A DNA stretch of 64,000 nt from Caballeronia sp. LZ062 (GTDB lineage: Bacteria; Pseudomonadota; Gammaproteobacteria; Burkholderiales; Burkholderiaceae): contig NZ_JARTWB010000002.1 in NCBI RefSeq assembly GCF_031450785.1, forward strand, positions 1,426,001 through 1,490,000, in the 5' to 3' direction. A program made the translations under genes and the position numbers. Positions 42,643-46,287 of the stretch are shown one piece after another; the stretch's first letter is position 1, and every line of letters begins with the position of its first letter. The notes under the pieces are model-generated. The model saw nothing but the letters and a program-made list of their open reading frames with translations. It was not told where the DNA came from and did no database searches.

Positions 42643-43509
42643 ATGTCGGCTGTTGTCGCATCTTTCGGGCAGTCGGGCGCGCGCGCGCCCGTCGGAATTT
42701 TCGATTCCGGTCTGGGCGGGCTCTCCGTGCTGCGCGCGGTCCGCGCCGTGCTGCCGCACGAGCGGCTGATCTACGTGGCGGACTCGCTGCACGCGCCCTA
42801 TGGCGAGCGCGATGACGCGTTCATCACCGGGCGCACCATAGCCATCGGCGAATGGCTCGTCGCGCAGGGAGCGAAGGCGCTCGTCGTCGCGTGCAACACG
42901 GCGACGGCGCAGTCCATTGCTCACGTGCGCGAGCGGCTGGCTATCCCGCTTGTCGGCGTCGAGCCCGGCGTGAAGCCGGCGGCGGCGGTGTCGAAGACCG
43001 GCGTGGTCGGCGTGCTGGCCACGCAGGCGACGCTGCGCAGCGCGCGCTTTCAGTCCCTGCTCGACCGTTACGCCGGTAATTGCCGCTTTATCTGCCAGCC
43101 GGGGCACGGCCTGGTTCAGGCGGTGGAACGGTGCGACACCTCGTCGCCCGAACTCATGGCGCTGCTCGAAGGCTATCTGAAGCCGATGCTCGACGCCGGC
43201 GCGGACACGCTCGTGCTCGGCTGCACGCACTACCCTTTTCTCGACCGCGCGATCCGCGAGATCGCGGGCGAACGCCTGCGTATCGTCGACACGAGCGTCG
43301 CCGTGGCGCGGCAGCTCGAGCGTCTGCTCGACGCAAGCGGTTTGCGCAACACGGACGCATCGGTGGAACCCACGCCGCGCTTTTACTCGACCGCTGACGG
43401 CGAATCGCAGCGCCAGCTCGCGGCGTCGCTGCTGCGAATCGAAGCCAACGTACACCACGTCGATATTCCGACGGCGCATTCGCGCACTGCCGAGAACCCC
43501 AGCGCATAA
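42643..43509 (+). CDS. murI: Glutamate racemase
   Basis: Makes D-glutamate for peptidoglycan, 288 residues. The substrate loop IFDSGLGGLSVLRA, the two catalytic cysteines at about 84 (VVACNTAT) and 194 (LVLGCTHYPF), and the catalytic Asp of GIFDSG are all there. It starts 14 bases after bfr without an evident promoter, so it is probably read from the bfr transcript. The conserved sequence begins around residue 14, so a later start is possible. Confidence 0.95.
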   Translation: MSAVVASFGQSGARAPVGIFDSGLGGLSVLRAVRAVLPHERLIYVADSLHAPYGERDDAFITGRTIAIGEWLVAQGAKALVVACNTATAQSIAHVRERLAIPLVGVEPGVKPAAAVSKTGVVGVLATQATLRSARFQSLLDRYAGNCRFICQPGHGLVQAVERCDTSSPELMALLEGYLKPMLDAGADTLVLGCTHYPFLDRAIREIAGERLRIVDTSVAVARQLERLLDASGLRNTDASVEPTPRFYSTADGESQRQLAASLLRIEANVHHVDIPTAHSRTAENPSA

Positions 43510-43613
43510 AGGGCTCTCCCCCGAACGGCGACACGCGCCGCTTCCCCCCTCGCCTGACCCCAGCACCCTGTTACAAAAAACTCCAGCCCTCGCTTGCAAA
43601 CCTCGCGGCAGTG

Positions 43614-43632
43614 AATGATAATAATTCGCATT
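43614..43632 (+). promoter_or_regulatory. Putative Fur box before bfd
   Basis: AATGATAATAATTCGCATT has seven of nine symmetric pairs of a 19-base Fur palindrome and keeps the GATAAT/ATTC pattern. It lies 23 bases before the bfd start codon, overlapping the likely promoter, so iron-replete Fur should repress bfd and perhaps tonB-exbBD. Confidence 0.72.
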
Positions 43633-43655
43633 AACAGAAGCTATCGCGAACCATC

Positions 43656-43880
43656 ATGATCGTCTGTGTCTGCAAGTCAGTGTCCGACCGGAAGATTCGC
43701 GCCGCCATCGCGGACGGCGTCGACACCTTTGATGAACTTCAGTTCGAACTCGGCGTCGCCATGTGCTGCGGGAAGTGCGAAGAAAGCGTGCGTGACGTGA
43801 TGGCGCAAAGCGGCGTCTGCGCCTCGCGTTGCGGCGTGCAGGCGGCGCCCGTCACGTTCTACGAGCGGCAAGCGGCCTGA
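43656..43880 (+). CDS. bfd: Bacterioferritin-associated ferredoxin
   Basis: A 74-residue [2Fe-2S] protein that reduces the ferric core of bacterioferritin to release iron. The cluster motif is Cys4-x-Cys6 and Cys38-x2-Cys41 (MIVCVCKSVSD, CCGKC), the standard BFD-like fold. Its C-terminus is longer than E. coli Bfd and contains two more cysteines (GVCASRCGVQ). The gene is preceded by a Fur box and followed by a very small open frame and tonB-exbB-exbD. Confidence 0.92.
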   Translation: MIVCVCKSVSDRKIRAAIADGVDTFDELQFELGVAMCCGKCEESVRDVMAQSGVCASRCGVQAAPVTFYERQAA

Positions 43881-43966
43881 CGCATTGGCGCCAGTCGGCC
43901 GCGCCGCGTCGCCAATCAGCCGCAGTACCTTCTGCAAGCCTTTCAGCCGCGCTCAAAGGAGAAGAA

Positions 43967-44029
43967 ATGGAATTGCTGATTGGTTTCGTGGCTACCCTTT
44001 TTATTTCGCTGCTGATATTTCGTAGGTGA
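43967..44029 (+). CDS. Possible 20-residue membrane peptide between bfd and tonB
   Basis: An ATG preceded by AAAGGAGAAGAA, one of the best ribosome binding sites in the window, opens a 20-codon frame ending in TGA. The peptide starts MELLIGF, has one hydrophobic span of about 17 residues and ends in Arg-Arg, the topology of small single-pass membrane proteins. The frame is AT-rich compared with its neighbours. It may be a real microprotein in the Fur-controlled operon or a leader peptide affecting tonB. No homologue is recognised by eye. Confidence 0.5.
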   Translation: MELLIGFVATLFISLLIFRR

Positions 44030-44119
44030 CTTTGCTTTGTCACTGTCGTAAGCCAGCTTTTGGTCGGGATGTCAGTGACATTGGCCGTCAGGCAAGCAGA
44101 GTTCAGAATAACTTCAAGC

Positions 44120-44869
44120 ATGCAGTCCTCGACCCCGTCTCCCGCCGCTTTTCAGTCAGCGCCGTCATCGAGCGTCCATCCTCGGCTACTCGCCGCGTGC
44201 GCTCTTGTCCTCGCGATACATGCGGCGCTGCTCGGCGTCGCGCTGACGATGCGTCATGAAGCACCGCCGCGCCCCGTCGAAGCGAAAGCCATCACCGCGC
44301 AATTGATCAGCGAGACGCCCCAACCCGCGCCGCAGCCGGTTGCCGTCCAGTCACCGCCCACGCCTCAGCCGCCGAAACCCGTTCCGAAGCCGCAGCCCAA
44401 GCCGCAGCCGAAGCCGAAGGTCACACCCAAGGTCGAGCCGAAACCCGCGCCGATGCCGGTCGCGCAAGCACCGTCGCAAATTGCCGCGCCCGCGCCCGAG
44501 CCGACGCCCCCTGCTCCGCCCGCCCCGCCGCCGGCCGCGCCTGCGCCCGCCGCGCCCGCCATCGGAAAGCCGACGATGGACCTCGCCGCGCCGAAGAACG
44601 TCGCGCACCTGTCGTGCAATATCGCGCAGCCGGACTATCCGGCGATGTCACGCCGCCGTGGGGAAACCGGTACGGCGCTGGTCAAGCTGACGGTCGGCCT
44701 CACGGGCAAGATCGACACCGTGACGCTGCAAAAAAGTAGCGGCTCCTCGCGCCTCGACGACGCCGCGCTCGACGCCGTTAGGTCGAGCACCTGCACGCCG
44801 TACAAGGAGAATGGCGAGGCGATCCGCGCCACGGCCACCGTCCCGTTCGTATTCAGCCTGAACGACTAG
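44120..44869 (+). CDS. tonB: TonB energy-transducing protein
   Basis: A 249-residue periplasm-spanning protein. Cytoplasmic Ser/Pro-rich start, one membrane anchor (about 22-42), a long Pro-Lys/Pro-Ala rod (about 55-160) with repeated KPQPKPQPKP, then the TonB C-terminal domain LSCNIAQPDYPAMSRRRGETG and SSGSSRLDDAALDAVRSS. Two cysteines in the C-terminal domain (LSCN, SSTCTPY) could pair. It energises outer-membrane siderophore and haem receptors. The ATG at 44120 is preferred by topology although its ribosome binding site is weak. Confidence 0.92.
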   Translation: MQSSTPSPAAFQSAPSSSVHPRLLAACALVLAIHAALLGVALTMRHEAPPRPVEAKAITAQLISETPQPAPQPVAVQSPPTPQPPKPVPKPQPKPQPKPKVTPKVEPKPAPMPVAQAPSQIAAPAPEPTPPAPPAPPPAAPAPAAPAIGKPTMDLAAPKNVAHLSCNIAQPDYPAMSRRRGETGTALVKLTVGLTGKIDTVTLQKSSGSSRLDDAALDAVRSSTCTPYKENGEAIRATATVPFVFSLND

Positions 44870-44897
44870 CCGGTTTTTTGGAAACAAGGAAACAGCA

Positions 44898-45644
44898 ATG
44901 CAAAACTACGGAATTGCGCACGTCTGGGCGCAAGGCGATTTCGTGACGCGCGGCATCGCGCTCGCGCTCGTCATCATGTCGGTGCTTTCTTGGACGGTGA
45001 TCGTCGTGAAAGCGTGGAACGTCGTGCGGCTCAAGCGCTTGACGAAGAACGCGGAACAGGCGTTCTGGCATTCCGACGACTTCAACGACGGCATCAACAA
45101 GCTGGGCGGCCAGTCGTCGAGCGCGGCGGACAACCCGTTTCTCGCGCTCGCGCTCGCCGGGCAGGAAGCCGCGGACCATCATCACCAGACGCAGCCGCAT
45201 CTGCACGACCGCATGGATGTCTCGGACTGGATCACGCGCTGCCTGAAAGACGTCATGGACGAAAGCGTCGGCCGTATGCAGGCGGGGCTTGCGGTGCTGG
45301 CGTCGATCGGCAGTACGGCGCCGTTCGTCGGACTCTTCGGCACCGTGTGGGGCATCTATCACGCGCTCCTGACCATCGGCGCGACGGGCCAGACTTCGAT
45401 CGATCAGGTCGCGGGTCCGGTCGGCGAGTCGCTCATCATGACCGCGTTCGGCCTCTTTGTCGCGATTCCGGCGGTGCTCGGCTACAACGCGCTGACTCGC
45501 GGGAACAAGAGCATCGTGACGAAGCTCAACCGCTTCGCGCACGGCCTGCACGCATTTTTCGTCACCGGGTCAAAACTGTCGTCGAGCAAGCGCGCGACCA
45601 ATGCGCAATCCGACAGCCTGCGTCTTGCGACGCGCGCCAGCTAA
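44898..45644 (+). CDS. exbB: ExbB proton channel subunit
   Basis: A 248-residue MotA/TolQ/ExbB-family protein with three helices. The cytoplasmic DRMDVSDWITRCLKDVMDES region, then ASIGSTAPFVGLFGTVWGIYHAL and TAFGLFVAIPAVLGYNAL, contain the conserved Thr and Pro of the proton path. A His-rich patch (DHHHQTQPHLHD) at about 94-105 is noteworthy. It follows tonB by 28 bases, and CAAGGAAACAGC precedes the ATG. Confidence 0.94.
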   Translation: MQNYGIAHVWAQGDFVTRGIALALVIMSVLSWTVIVVKAWNVVRLKRLTKNAEQAFWHSDDFNDGINKLGGQSSSAADNPFLALALAGQEAADHHHQTQPHLHDRMDVSDWITRCLKDVMDESVGRMQAGLAVLASIGSTAPFVGLFGTVWGIYHALLTIGATGQTSIDQVAGPVGESLIMTAFGLFVAIPAVLGYNALTRGNKSIVTKLNRFAHGLHAFFVTGSKLSSSKRATNAQSDSLRLATRAS

Positions 45645-45656
45645 GCGGAGGTTCGC

Positions 45657-46079
45657 ATGGCCATGAGCCCATTCGCCGGCGATGAAGACGACGGCATGAT
45701 GAGCGAAATCAACATGACGCCGCTCGTCGACGTCATGCTCGTTCTCCTGATCATTTTTCTGGTGACGATTCCCGCGATGCATCACGCGGTGAAGATCGAT
45801 TTGCCGCACGCGAGCAGTCAGCCGCAGGACGAAAAGCCCGCGCACGTGGACGTCGCGATTCAGGCCGACGGCACCATTCTCTGGAACGACCAGAAGATCG
45901 ACGATGCGGCGCTCGACGCGCGCATCGCGCAGGCCTCGCAGGAGTCGCCGCAGCCGGAACTGCACTTGCGTGCGGATCGCAAGGTGCCGTATGAGCGCGT
46001 GGCCGACGTGATGTCGGCGGCGCAGGCAGGCGGTTTGTCGAAGATCGGTTTCGTGACGCAGCCGAAGGCAGGGAAATAG
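45657..46079 (+). CDS. exbD: ExbD proton channel subunit
   Basis: A 140-residue TolR/ExbD-family protein. ISEINMTPLVDVMLVLLIIFLVT-like sequence (MSEINMTPLVDVMLVLLI) supplies the single helix with the essential Asp. The C-terminal periplasmic domain ends YERVADVMSAAQAGGLSKIG, typical of ExbD. It lies 12 bases after exbB and completes the TonB complex; a terminator follows. Confidence 0.95.
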   Translation: MAMSPFAGDEDDGMMSEINMTPLVDVMLVLLIIFLVTIPAMHHAVKIDLPHASSQPQDEKPAHVDVAIQADGTILWNDQKIDDAALDARIAQASQESPQPELHLRADRKVPYERVADVMSAAQAGGLSKIGFVTQPKAGK

Positions 46080-46103
46080 GCGTCGAAGAAGAGCGGCAAA
46101 GTA

Positions 46104-46136
46104 AAAGGCCTTCATCGTCGGATGAAGGCCTTTTTT
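46104..46136 (+). terminator. Terminator of the tonB-exbBD operon
   Basis: AAAGGCCTTCATC and GATGAAGGCCTTT form a perfect 13-base stem around GTCG, followed by six T residues, 25 bases after exbD. Confidence 0.9.
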
Positions 46137-46167
46137 CTTGCGCGCTCGGCGCATTCGGGCGAGGCGA

Positions 46168-46287
46168 TTACTTGGGGCTCGAATAGCCTGAGCCGCCAGA
46201 ACCGTCACATGCAGCAGCCGTGGTCGACACGGACAGCGCGATCAGCCCTATCAGGCTAACTATCAGAGTAGCCGTCAATTTCCGCAT
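46168..46287 (-). CDS. 39-residue exported peptide
   Basis: The start ATG has TAAGGAGCTT directly in front, a near-perfect ribosome binding site. The peptide is MRKLTATLIVSLIGLIALSV followed by TTAAACDGSGGSGYSSPK: a signal sequence and a short Gly/Ser tail with one cysteine. The cysteine follows AAA, so the alternatives are secretion of an about 14-residue peptide after signal peptidase I or, less likely, lipidation. Function unknown. Codon use is not GC-biased, unlike neighbours. Confidence 0.6.
   Translation of the reverse strand: MRKLTATLIVSLIGLIALSVSTTAAACDGSGGSGYSSPK

Follow-up and report, generated by a model that had tools for sequence, protein, structure and literature searches.

Bacteria rely on the TonB system to drive scarce nutrients, iron-siderophore complexes among them, across the outer membrane. 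The working parts are generally taken to be TonB, ExbB and ExbD, of which TonB and ExbD are themselves single-span proteins. We know of no fourth small subunit of TonB-ExbB-ExbD, and none is announced in the titles and opening abstract lines of the open papers found on the subject. KdpF is an operon-encoded single-span small membrane subunit. CydX (PMC4325964) and AcrZ (PMC7267776) are likewise very short, operon-encoded and built of a single hydrophobic helix. Short genes before metal-uptake genes can also be translated leaders. CruR is reported to sense copper via a CXXC motif and to undergo arrest on RAPP, and its operon encodes a TonB-dependent transporter (PMC9426467). CutF is reported to use an exported chain with a C-terminal stalling-like motif and a stem-loop in the mRNA (PMC9973294).

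We analyzed a 20-codon frame and its surroundings in Caballeronia sp. LZ062. The window, by which we mean the whole stretch of 64,000 nucleotides, covers 1.426-1.490 Mb of contig 2 in a genome of 5.06 Mb. The gene order on the + strand is bfr (a ferritin-family gene), murI, bfd, the 20-codon frame, tonB, exbB and exbD, with the following features:

43611..43629, + strand: Fur-box-like sequence upstream of bfd, overlapping a -10-like GATAAT (43617-43622)
43656..43880, + strand: bfd, bacterioferritin-associated ferredoxin (Pfam PF04324)
43881..43954, + strand: bfd-to-microprotein spacer, where related loci have AGCCAGC motifs
43955..43961, + strand: Shine-Dalgarno sequence AAAGGAG of the microprotein, pairing at -8.7 kcal/mol in the window
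43967..44029, + strand: 20-codon microprotein gene, with ATG at 43967 and stop TGA at 44027-44029
44120..44869, + strand: tonB (Pfam PF03544), with no recognisable Shine-Dalgarno sequence at its start
44898..45644, + strand: exbB (Pfam PF01618)
45657..46079, + strand: exbD (Pfam PF02472)

The stop codon of the frame is separated from the tonB ATG (44120) by 90 bases. The original prediction had placed the frame in a Fur-boxed bfd-tonB-exbB-exbD operon. Pfam agrees for Bfd, TonB, ExbB and ExbD. As for the Fur box, a Fur-box-like sequence does lie upstream of bfd at 43611-43629, matching by eye 14 of the 19 positions of a Fur-box consensus, and a consensus promoter scan gave a promoter-like match of 9/12 at the GATAAT. 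On Bfd identity, Caballeronia sp. GAFFF1 (97%) and Burkholderia sp. 8Y (96%) come closest among named relatives. Two further elements were seen beyond exbD. A terminator-like hairpin with a T run (about 46103-46138) was recognized by eye and is unlisted by the promoter scan. A second short frame, 46168-46287 on the - strand, encodes 39 signal-peptide-like residues (MRKLTATLIVSLIGLIALSVSTTAAACDGSGGSGYSSPK) behind an AAGGAG site and is nested in a longer listed frame.

The product of the frame at 43967-44029 is MELLIGFVATLFISLLIFRR, 20 residues in length. A first sample, comprising the window and 111 Bfd-encoding loci (the window's own genome included), was examined for a matching frame; with 38 loci from distant genera added and L001 removed, the final table held 149 bfd loci, L160 and L177 having been excluded earlier as lacking bfd. 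The frame was intact in 129 of the 149 loci, intact being defined as an ATG, 20 codons, a stop and a consensus score of 60 or more, a cut-off that favours conserved frames. The loci are non-independent (some occur under both a G handle and a name, and the window entered as both L002 and WIN), and the 95 distinct DNA sequences, encoding 47 distinct peptides, are a fairer count than the 129 loci. Over 44 independent pairs there were 180 synonymous and 60 non-synonymous differences, with a pN/pS of 0.125, compared to 1.14 and 3.77 for the other two frames in the same pairs. The non-synonymous fraction was 0.25, against 0.68 under neutral simulation, where the minimum of 1000 runs was 0.59. The coding type of this evolution excludes a chance frame, and we are nearly certain that 43967-44029 is a real protein-coding gene. 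The distances around the frame are free to vary: bfd lies 11-254 nt before it among the loci listed, and the gap to tonB spans about 30-191 nt, as measured to automatically chosen tonB starts; in some loci, including that of the window, the choice fell on an in-frame ATG further upstream.

The 20 loci without an intact frame fall into altered and frameless ones. In L005 and L033, which represent one strain (Burkholderia sp. 8Y), the frame is broken; L010 and L054 carry a 16-residue form, L058 an in-frame TAG, and L076 a GTG start with the rest intact. The ATG is lost in L079 (Candidatus Burkholderia pumila), the frame is rearranged in L176, and L089 (Candidatus Burkholderia brachyanthoides) and L178 have a 24-residue form. 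The remaining ten loci, all from distant genomes (L147, L153-L159, L161 and L180), showed no frame.

Pairing to the anti-Shine-Dalgarno sequence was calculated for as many as 86 distinct loci, with the tonB starts chosen automatically. The median for the frame was -8.4 kcal/mol, with 99% of the 86 distinct loci at or below -5, whereas tonB gave -0.8 kcal/mol with 1% at or below -5; the values for exbB, bfd and random positions were -5.6, +0.3 and -2.2 kcal/mol, respectively. Across related loci, tonB and bfd thus start nearly without a Shine-Dalgarno sequence, and the microprotein and exbB are well served. The contrast does not imply coupling, since tonB lacks a strong site also in L200 and L201, in which the frame is not its neighbour, and in two of four frameless loci checked, L155 and L157; in the other two, L156 and L180, tonB has a strong one.

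These results bear out most of what had been predicted for the frame itself. The 20 codons, the strong ribosome binding site and its contrast with the weak tonB site are common to related loci, and the reading as a microprotein gains support from both the intact copies and the pN/pS. The original prediction had named a conserved frame rich in synonymous change as the sign of a gene, and frameshifts, loss of the ATG or ribosome binding site, or mere nucleotide drift in relatives as signs against one; the former was found, and the search for the latter turned up some lineage-specific losses, with the frame otherwise preserved. The two-arginine ending holds for the window's own lineage, but only R19 is widely conserved (92 of the 95 distinct sequences), position 20 being K, T, R, S, P, A, Y, Q or E.

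Of 200 genomes sampled from the family, 107 were matched in a search with the peptide, and these represent 9 of 25 genera. We count eight genera as carrying the frame, because the match in g12 is a chance one: its hits (G094 and G050) have no ATG start and none of bfd, murI, bfr, fumarase, exbB or exbD nearby, and were rejected. In 106 of the 107 genomes hit, no more than about 0.5 kb separates the best match from that to Bfd, as compared by eye. Every one of 144 genomes of a neighbouring genus (g20) was matched, as were 53 of 58 in the window's genus, altered copies in G139, G160, G179 and G640 included; four of the five misses (G167, G619, G623 and G628) also have no bfd match, and the fifth, G116, is Burkholderia sp. 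8Y. The named loci belong to Burkholderia, Paraburkholderia, Caballeronia and Trinickia. An order-wide search gave matches in 15 of 300 genomes at E <= 3, ten of them outside the family. These ten look like chance, since none has an E value better than 0.28 and the 3 kb around each is devoid of matches to bfd, murI, bfr, fumarase, exbB and exbD; they were rejected. A tblastn search of plasmids with the peptide gave no match.

Ten peptide variants were compared with known families. Pfam returned no family, and NCBIfam one unrelated model for one variant (E 0.026), so that no match ties the peptide to CydX, KdpF or AcrZ; one PDB chain was hit at E 0.74, and the PHROG matches were weak (best E 0.021). 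Judged by titles and abstract openings, none of the open PMC papers listed (for one query the first 20 of 161) appeared to describe the peptide, and the string MELLIGFV found no match there; the text of PMC10903887 names neither TonB nor Burkholderia. The hydrophobic span covers residues 3-18, flanked by E2 on its N-terminal and R19 on its C-terminal side, and the 15-residue hydropathy maximum is 2.8 in the window peptide. By the positive-inside rule, this arrangement would put the C-terminus inside. Conservation is concentrated on one helix face (L3, F7, T10, S14 and I17) with a permutation p of 0.007, which is only a guide as the 47 peptides are related, and it fits the packing of the helix on a partner. 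A small-residue face, GxxxTxxxS, was also considered and was not significant (p 0.34). A nascent chain needs about 30 residues to reach out of the ribosome; 20 residues are too short to emerge during synthesis, which favours a finished peptide over an exported sensor chain.

We then considered which neighbour the frame follows. With the window entered a single time, 126 of 128 intact loci encode a TonB C-terminus within 1.5 kb downstream, the exceptions being L072, at a contig end, and L173, from G143. Among the loci listed, exbB-exbD come next in most. Four g25 loci (L152, L162, L163 and L166) carry bfd, an intact frame and tonB with no exbBD in the 3.7-5.3 kb examined, and their genomes hold only more distant ExbD relatives elsewhere (best 42-52%). 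The persistence of the frame in these four loci supports TonB better than ExbBD as the partner. In Burkholderia sp. 8Y (G116; L202 and L205), a rearrangement has split tonB into pieces about 104 kb apart, residues 1-116 beside bfd and residues 152-249 with exbB-exbD. There the frame is broken and bfd (96%), exbB (98%) and exbD (97%) are well kept; this is a single event.

The reverse case is offered by two species, G143 and G493, in which a tonB-exbB-exbD set stands elsewhere (L200 and L201; ExbB 83%) without such a frame, and the frame is kept behind bfd with only an exbD-like remnant (L199) left. Between the two species, 1 of 63 bases of the frame differs, synonymously, compared to 55 of 298 after the stop (Fisher p 1.9e-4). 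The frame is as well kept as bfd (17/252; p 0.14), and the spacer before it differs at 3 of 86 positions (p 2.6e-4 against the same 55/298). In their ancestor the peptide had already changed at five positions from the consensus. The frame need not act in cis, as it is kept here without an adjoining tonB, and such natural separations point to action in trans.

The TonB system does not need the microprotein everywhere, as close ExbB relatives (61-76% identity) turned up in 17 of the 18 genomes examined for them, and several of these belong to genera that lack the frame. In g15 and g7 (L155, L156, L157 and L180), bfd-tonB-exbBD is present and the frame absent, and in L058 and L079 a TonB frame lies beside the broken copy. 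Linkage to bfd is as tight as that to tonB. In three g18 loci, 11-13 nt separate bfd from the start of the frame. The frame is absent from L147, L153, L154, L158, L159 and L161, where bfd is not followed by tonB, and in G619 exbBD lies beside a short, diverged TonB C-terminal match with bfd and frame both missing.

The RNA around the frame was also analyzed. The folding z averaged 0.01 for 92 distinct frame-to-tonB spacers, 22% of which lay below -1; the control means were -0.13 within bfd and +0.52 ahead of the frame, and no structure before tonB was conserved across genera in these 92. Rfam gave no match in 43500-44950, a search that a new RNA family would escape. In many Paraburkholderia loci (e.g. 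L068, L077, L097, L107 and L109) a GC-rich hairpin lies some 12-14 nt upstream of the tonB start, with changes that look compensatory by eye; it is not common to other genera, and we rejected it as a general element. Three g10 loci (L150, L151 and L181) carry, between the frame and tonB, a hairpin that resembles an intrinsic terminator and runs into TTTTCC; it would part bfd and the microprotein from tonB. Of 86 distinct spacers ahead of the frame, 92% contain AGCCAGC, compared to 1.3% of shuffles, and a second non-coding motif, CAGCAAGCC, in 64% of bfd-to-microprotein spacers (e.g. L030, L077 and L107; 75 nt before the frame). Both motifs are partly decayed in the window's own lineage; they might be a small-RNA or protein site.

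Conservation, coding-type evolution, a strong Shine-Dalgarno sequence, linkage to bfd and tonB, and persistence without tonB in cis were all observed. The reading that we prefer, at a probability of roughly one half, is that the frame encodes an inner-membrane microprotein with a single span, which works in trans in iron uptake, likeliest as an accessory of TonB; its translation, location and partner are predicted from sequence. The frame would share a transcript and a Fur-controlled promoter with bfd, and in most cases also with tonB-exbB-exbD, and we propose from this control that the microprotein is made under iron scarcity. The helix would insert in the inner membrane with R19 probably cytoplasmic, and the face formed by L3, F7, T10, S14 and I17, with G6 nearby, may pack against a transmembrane helix of the iron-uptake machinery. 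The likeliest partner would be TonB, the assembly, stability or energisation of which could be tuned. The original prediction had suggested a partner of TonB/ExbB; its TonB side remains the best reading, and ExbBD is less supported in view of the four loci that keep the frame without exbBD.

A trans-acting membrane microprotein might instead serve Bfd and iron release from bacterioferritin, or another membrane target (e.g. as an anchor or a transporter regulator), and precede tonB only by way of the bfd transcript. This is rather unlikely in our estimate, even though the near-constant neighbourhood of bfd, the g18 loci, the terminator-like hairpin in g10, the retention of the frame with bfd in G143 and G493, and G619 with exbBD but neither bfd match nor frame all suit it. 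Bfd is soluble, the intact bfd of sp. 8Y accompanies a broken frame, and the six loci in which tonB does not follow bfd have no frame. We find it less probable still that the frame is a cis-acting leader peptide (uORF) controlling tonB by coupling, attenuation or nascent-chain arrest. A tonB nearly devoid of a Shine-Dalgarno sequence behind a frame with a strong one is what a leader might look like, a stable hairpin in some Paraburkholderia spacers and a terminator-like one in g10 could be read in the same way, and leaders before metal-uptake genes exist, namely CruR (PMC9426467) and CutF (PMC9973294). The 1/63 against 55/298 substitutions without an adjoining tonB argue against it, as do the folding z of 0.01, a gap to tonB of about 30-190 nt and the weak tonB site in L200, L201, L155 and L157 (L156 and L180 having a strong one); simple coupling, moreover, needs no conserved peptide. 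The suggestion of a translated leader controlling tonB, made in the original prediction, is weakened on the same grounds: conservation of the frame in G143 and G493, the variable gap, the lack of cross-genus structure in the 92 spacers, and the tonB sites.

The 3' end of bfd might also be released as a small regulatory RNA that encodes the peptide in addition, and the well-kept spacer in G143 and G493, the frequency of AGCCAGC and the terminator-like hairpin after the frame in g10 are compatible with such a dual-function RNA. The region 43500-44950 has no Rfam match, however, the mean z of +0.52 before the frame shows no excess of structure, and the pattern within the frame is a coding one; we regard this explanation as improbable. 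At the lowest end, it is very improbable that the frame is a small hydrophobic toxin of a type I toxin-antitoxin system or a chance frame. Type I toxins are similar in size and hydrophobicity, but here one copy sits in a fixed place in nearly all genomes hit (second hits being weak or a split copy), no Rfam antitoxin was found in 43500-44950 and no match on plasmids, and chance is excluded by the coding-type evolution.

Within the preferred reading of a TonB accessory, we tentatively suggest a more specific role, which we hold to be possible but not probable: a fourth component of TonB-ExbB-ExbD, namely a trans-acting helix that would dock on TonB via L3-F7-T10-S14-I17 and tune energisation under iron starvation. 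As part of the same tentative suggestion, the microprotein may be near-universal in Burkholderia and close relatives and among the shortest conserved bacterial protein-coding genes known. Twenty codons are below the usual annotation limits, and the microprotein is a clean test case for very short genes. If true, a conserved extra helix would change the picture of the TonB machine in a large group of soil, symbiotic and opportunistic bacteria.

Compared with the leaders, the microprotein gene is likewise a short gene before a metal-homeostasis gene, as are CruR (PMC9426467) and CutF (PMC9973294). Unlike CruR and CutF, it has at most one proline (at position 20, in few variants) and no cross-genus stem-loop; CXXC and RAPP are absent from all 47 distinct peptides and, in contrast to the cis leader class, the frame is conserved without tonB in cis (G143 and G493). 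It resembles CydX, KdpF and AcrZ in that it is a conserved short coding frame with one hydrophobic span, located in the predicted operon of a membrane complex (TonB in 126 of 128 loci). It differs from them in size (20 residues, compared to 37 aa for CydX; PMC4325964), in having no sequence relation that we could find to CydX, AcrZ or KdpF, and in its complex, which would be the TonB system. With TonB-ExbB-ExbD itself, the microprotein shares the same predicted operon in most loci.
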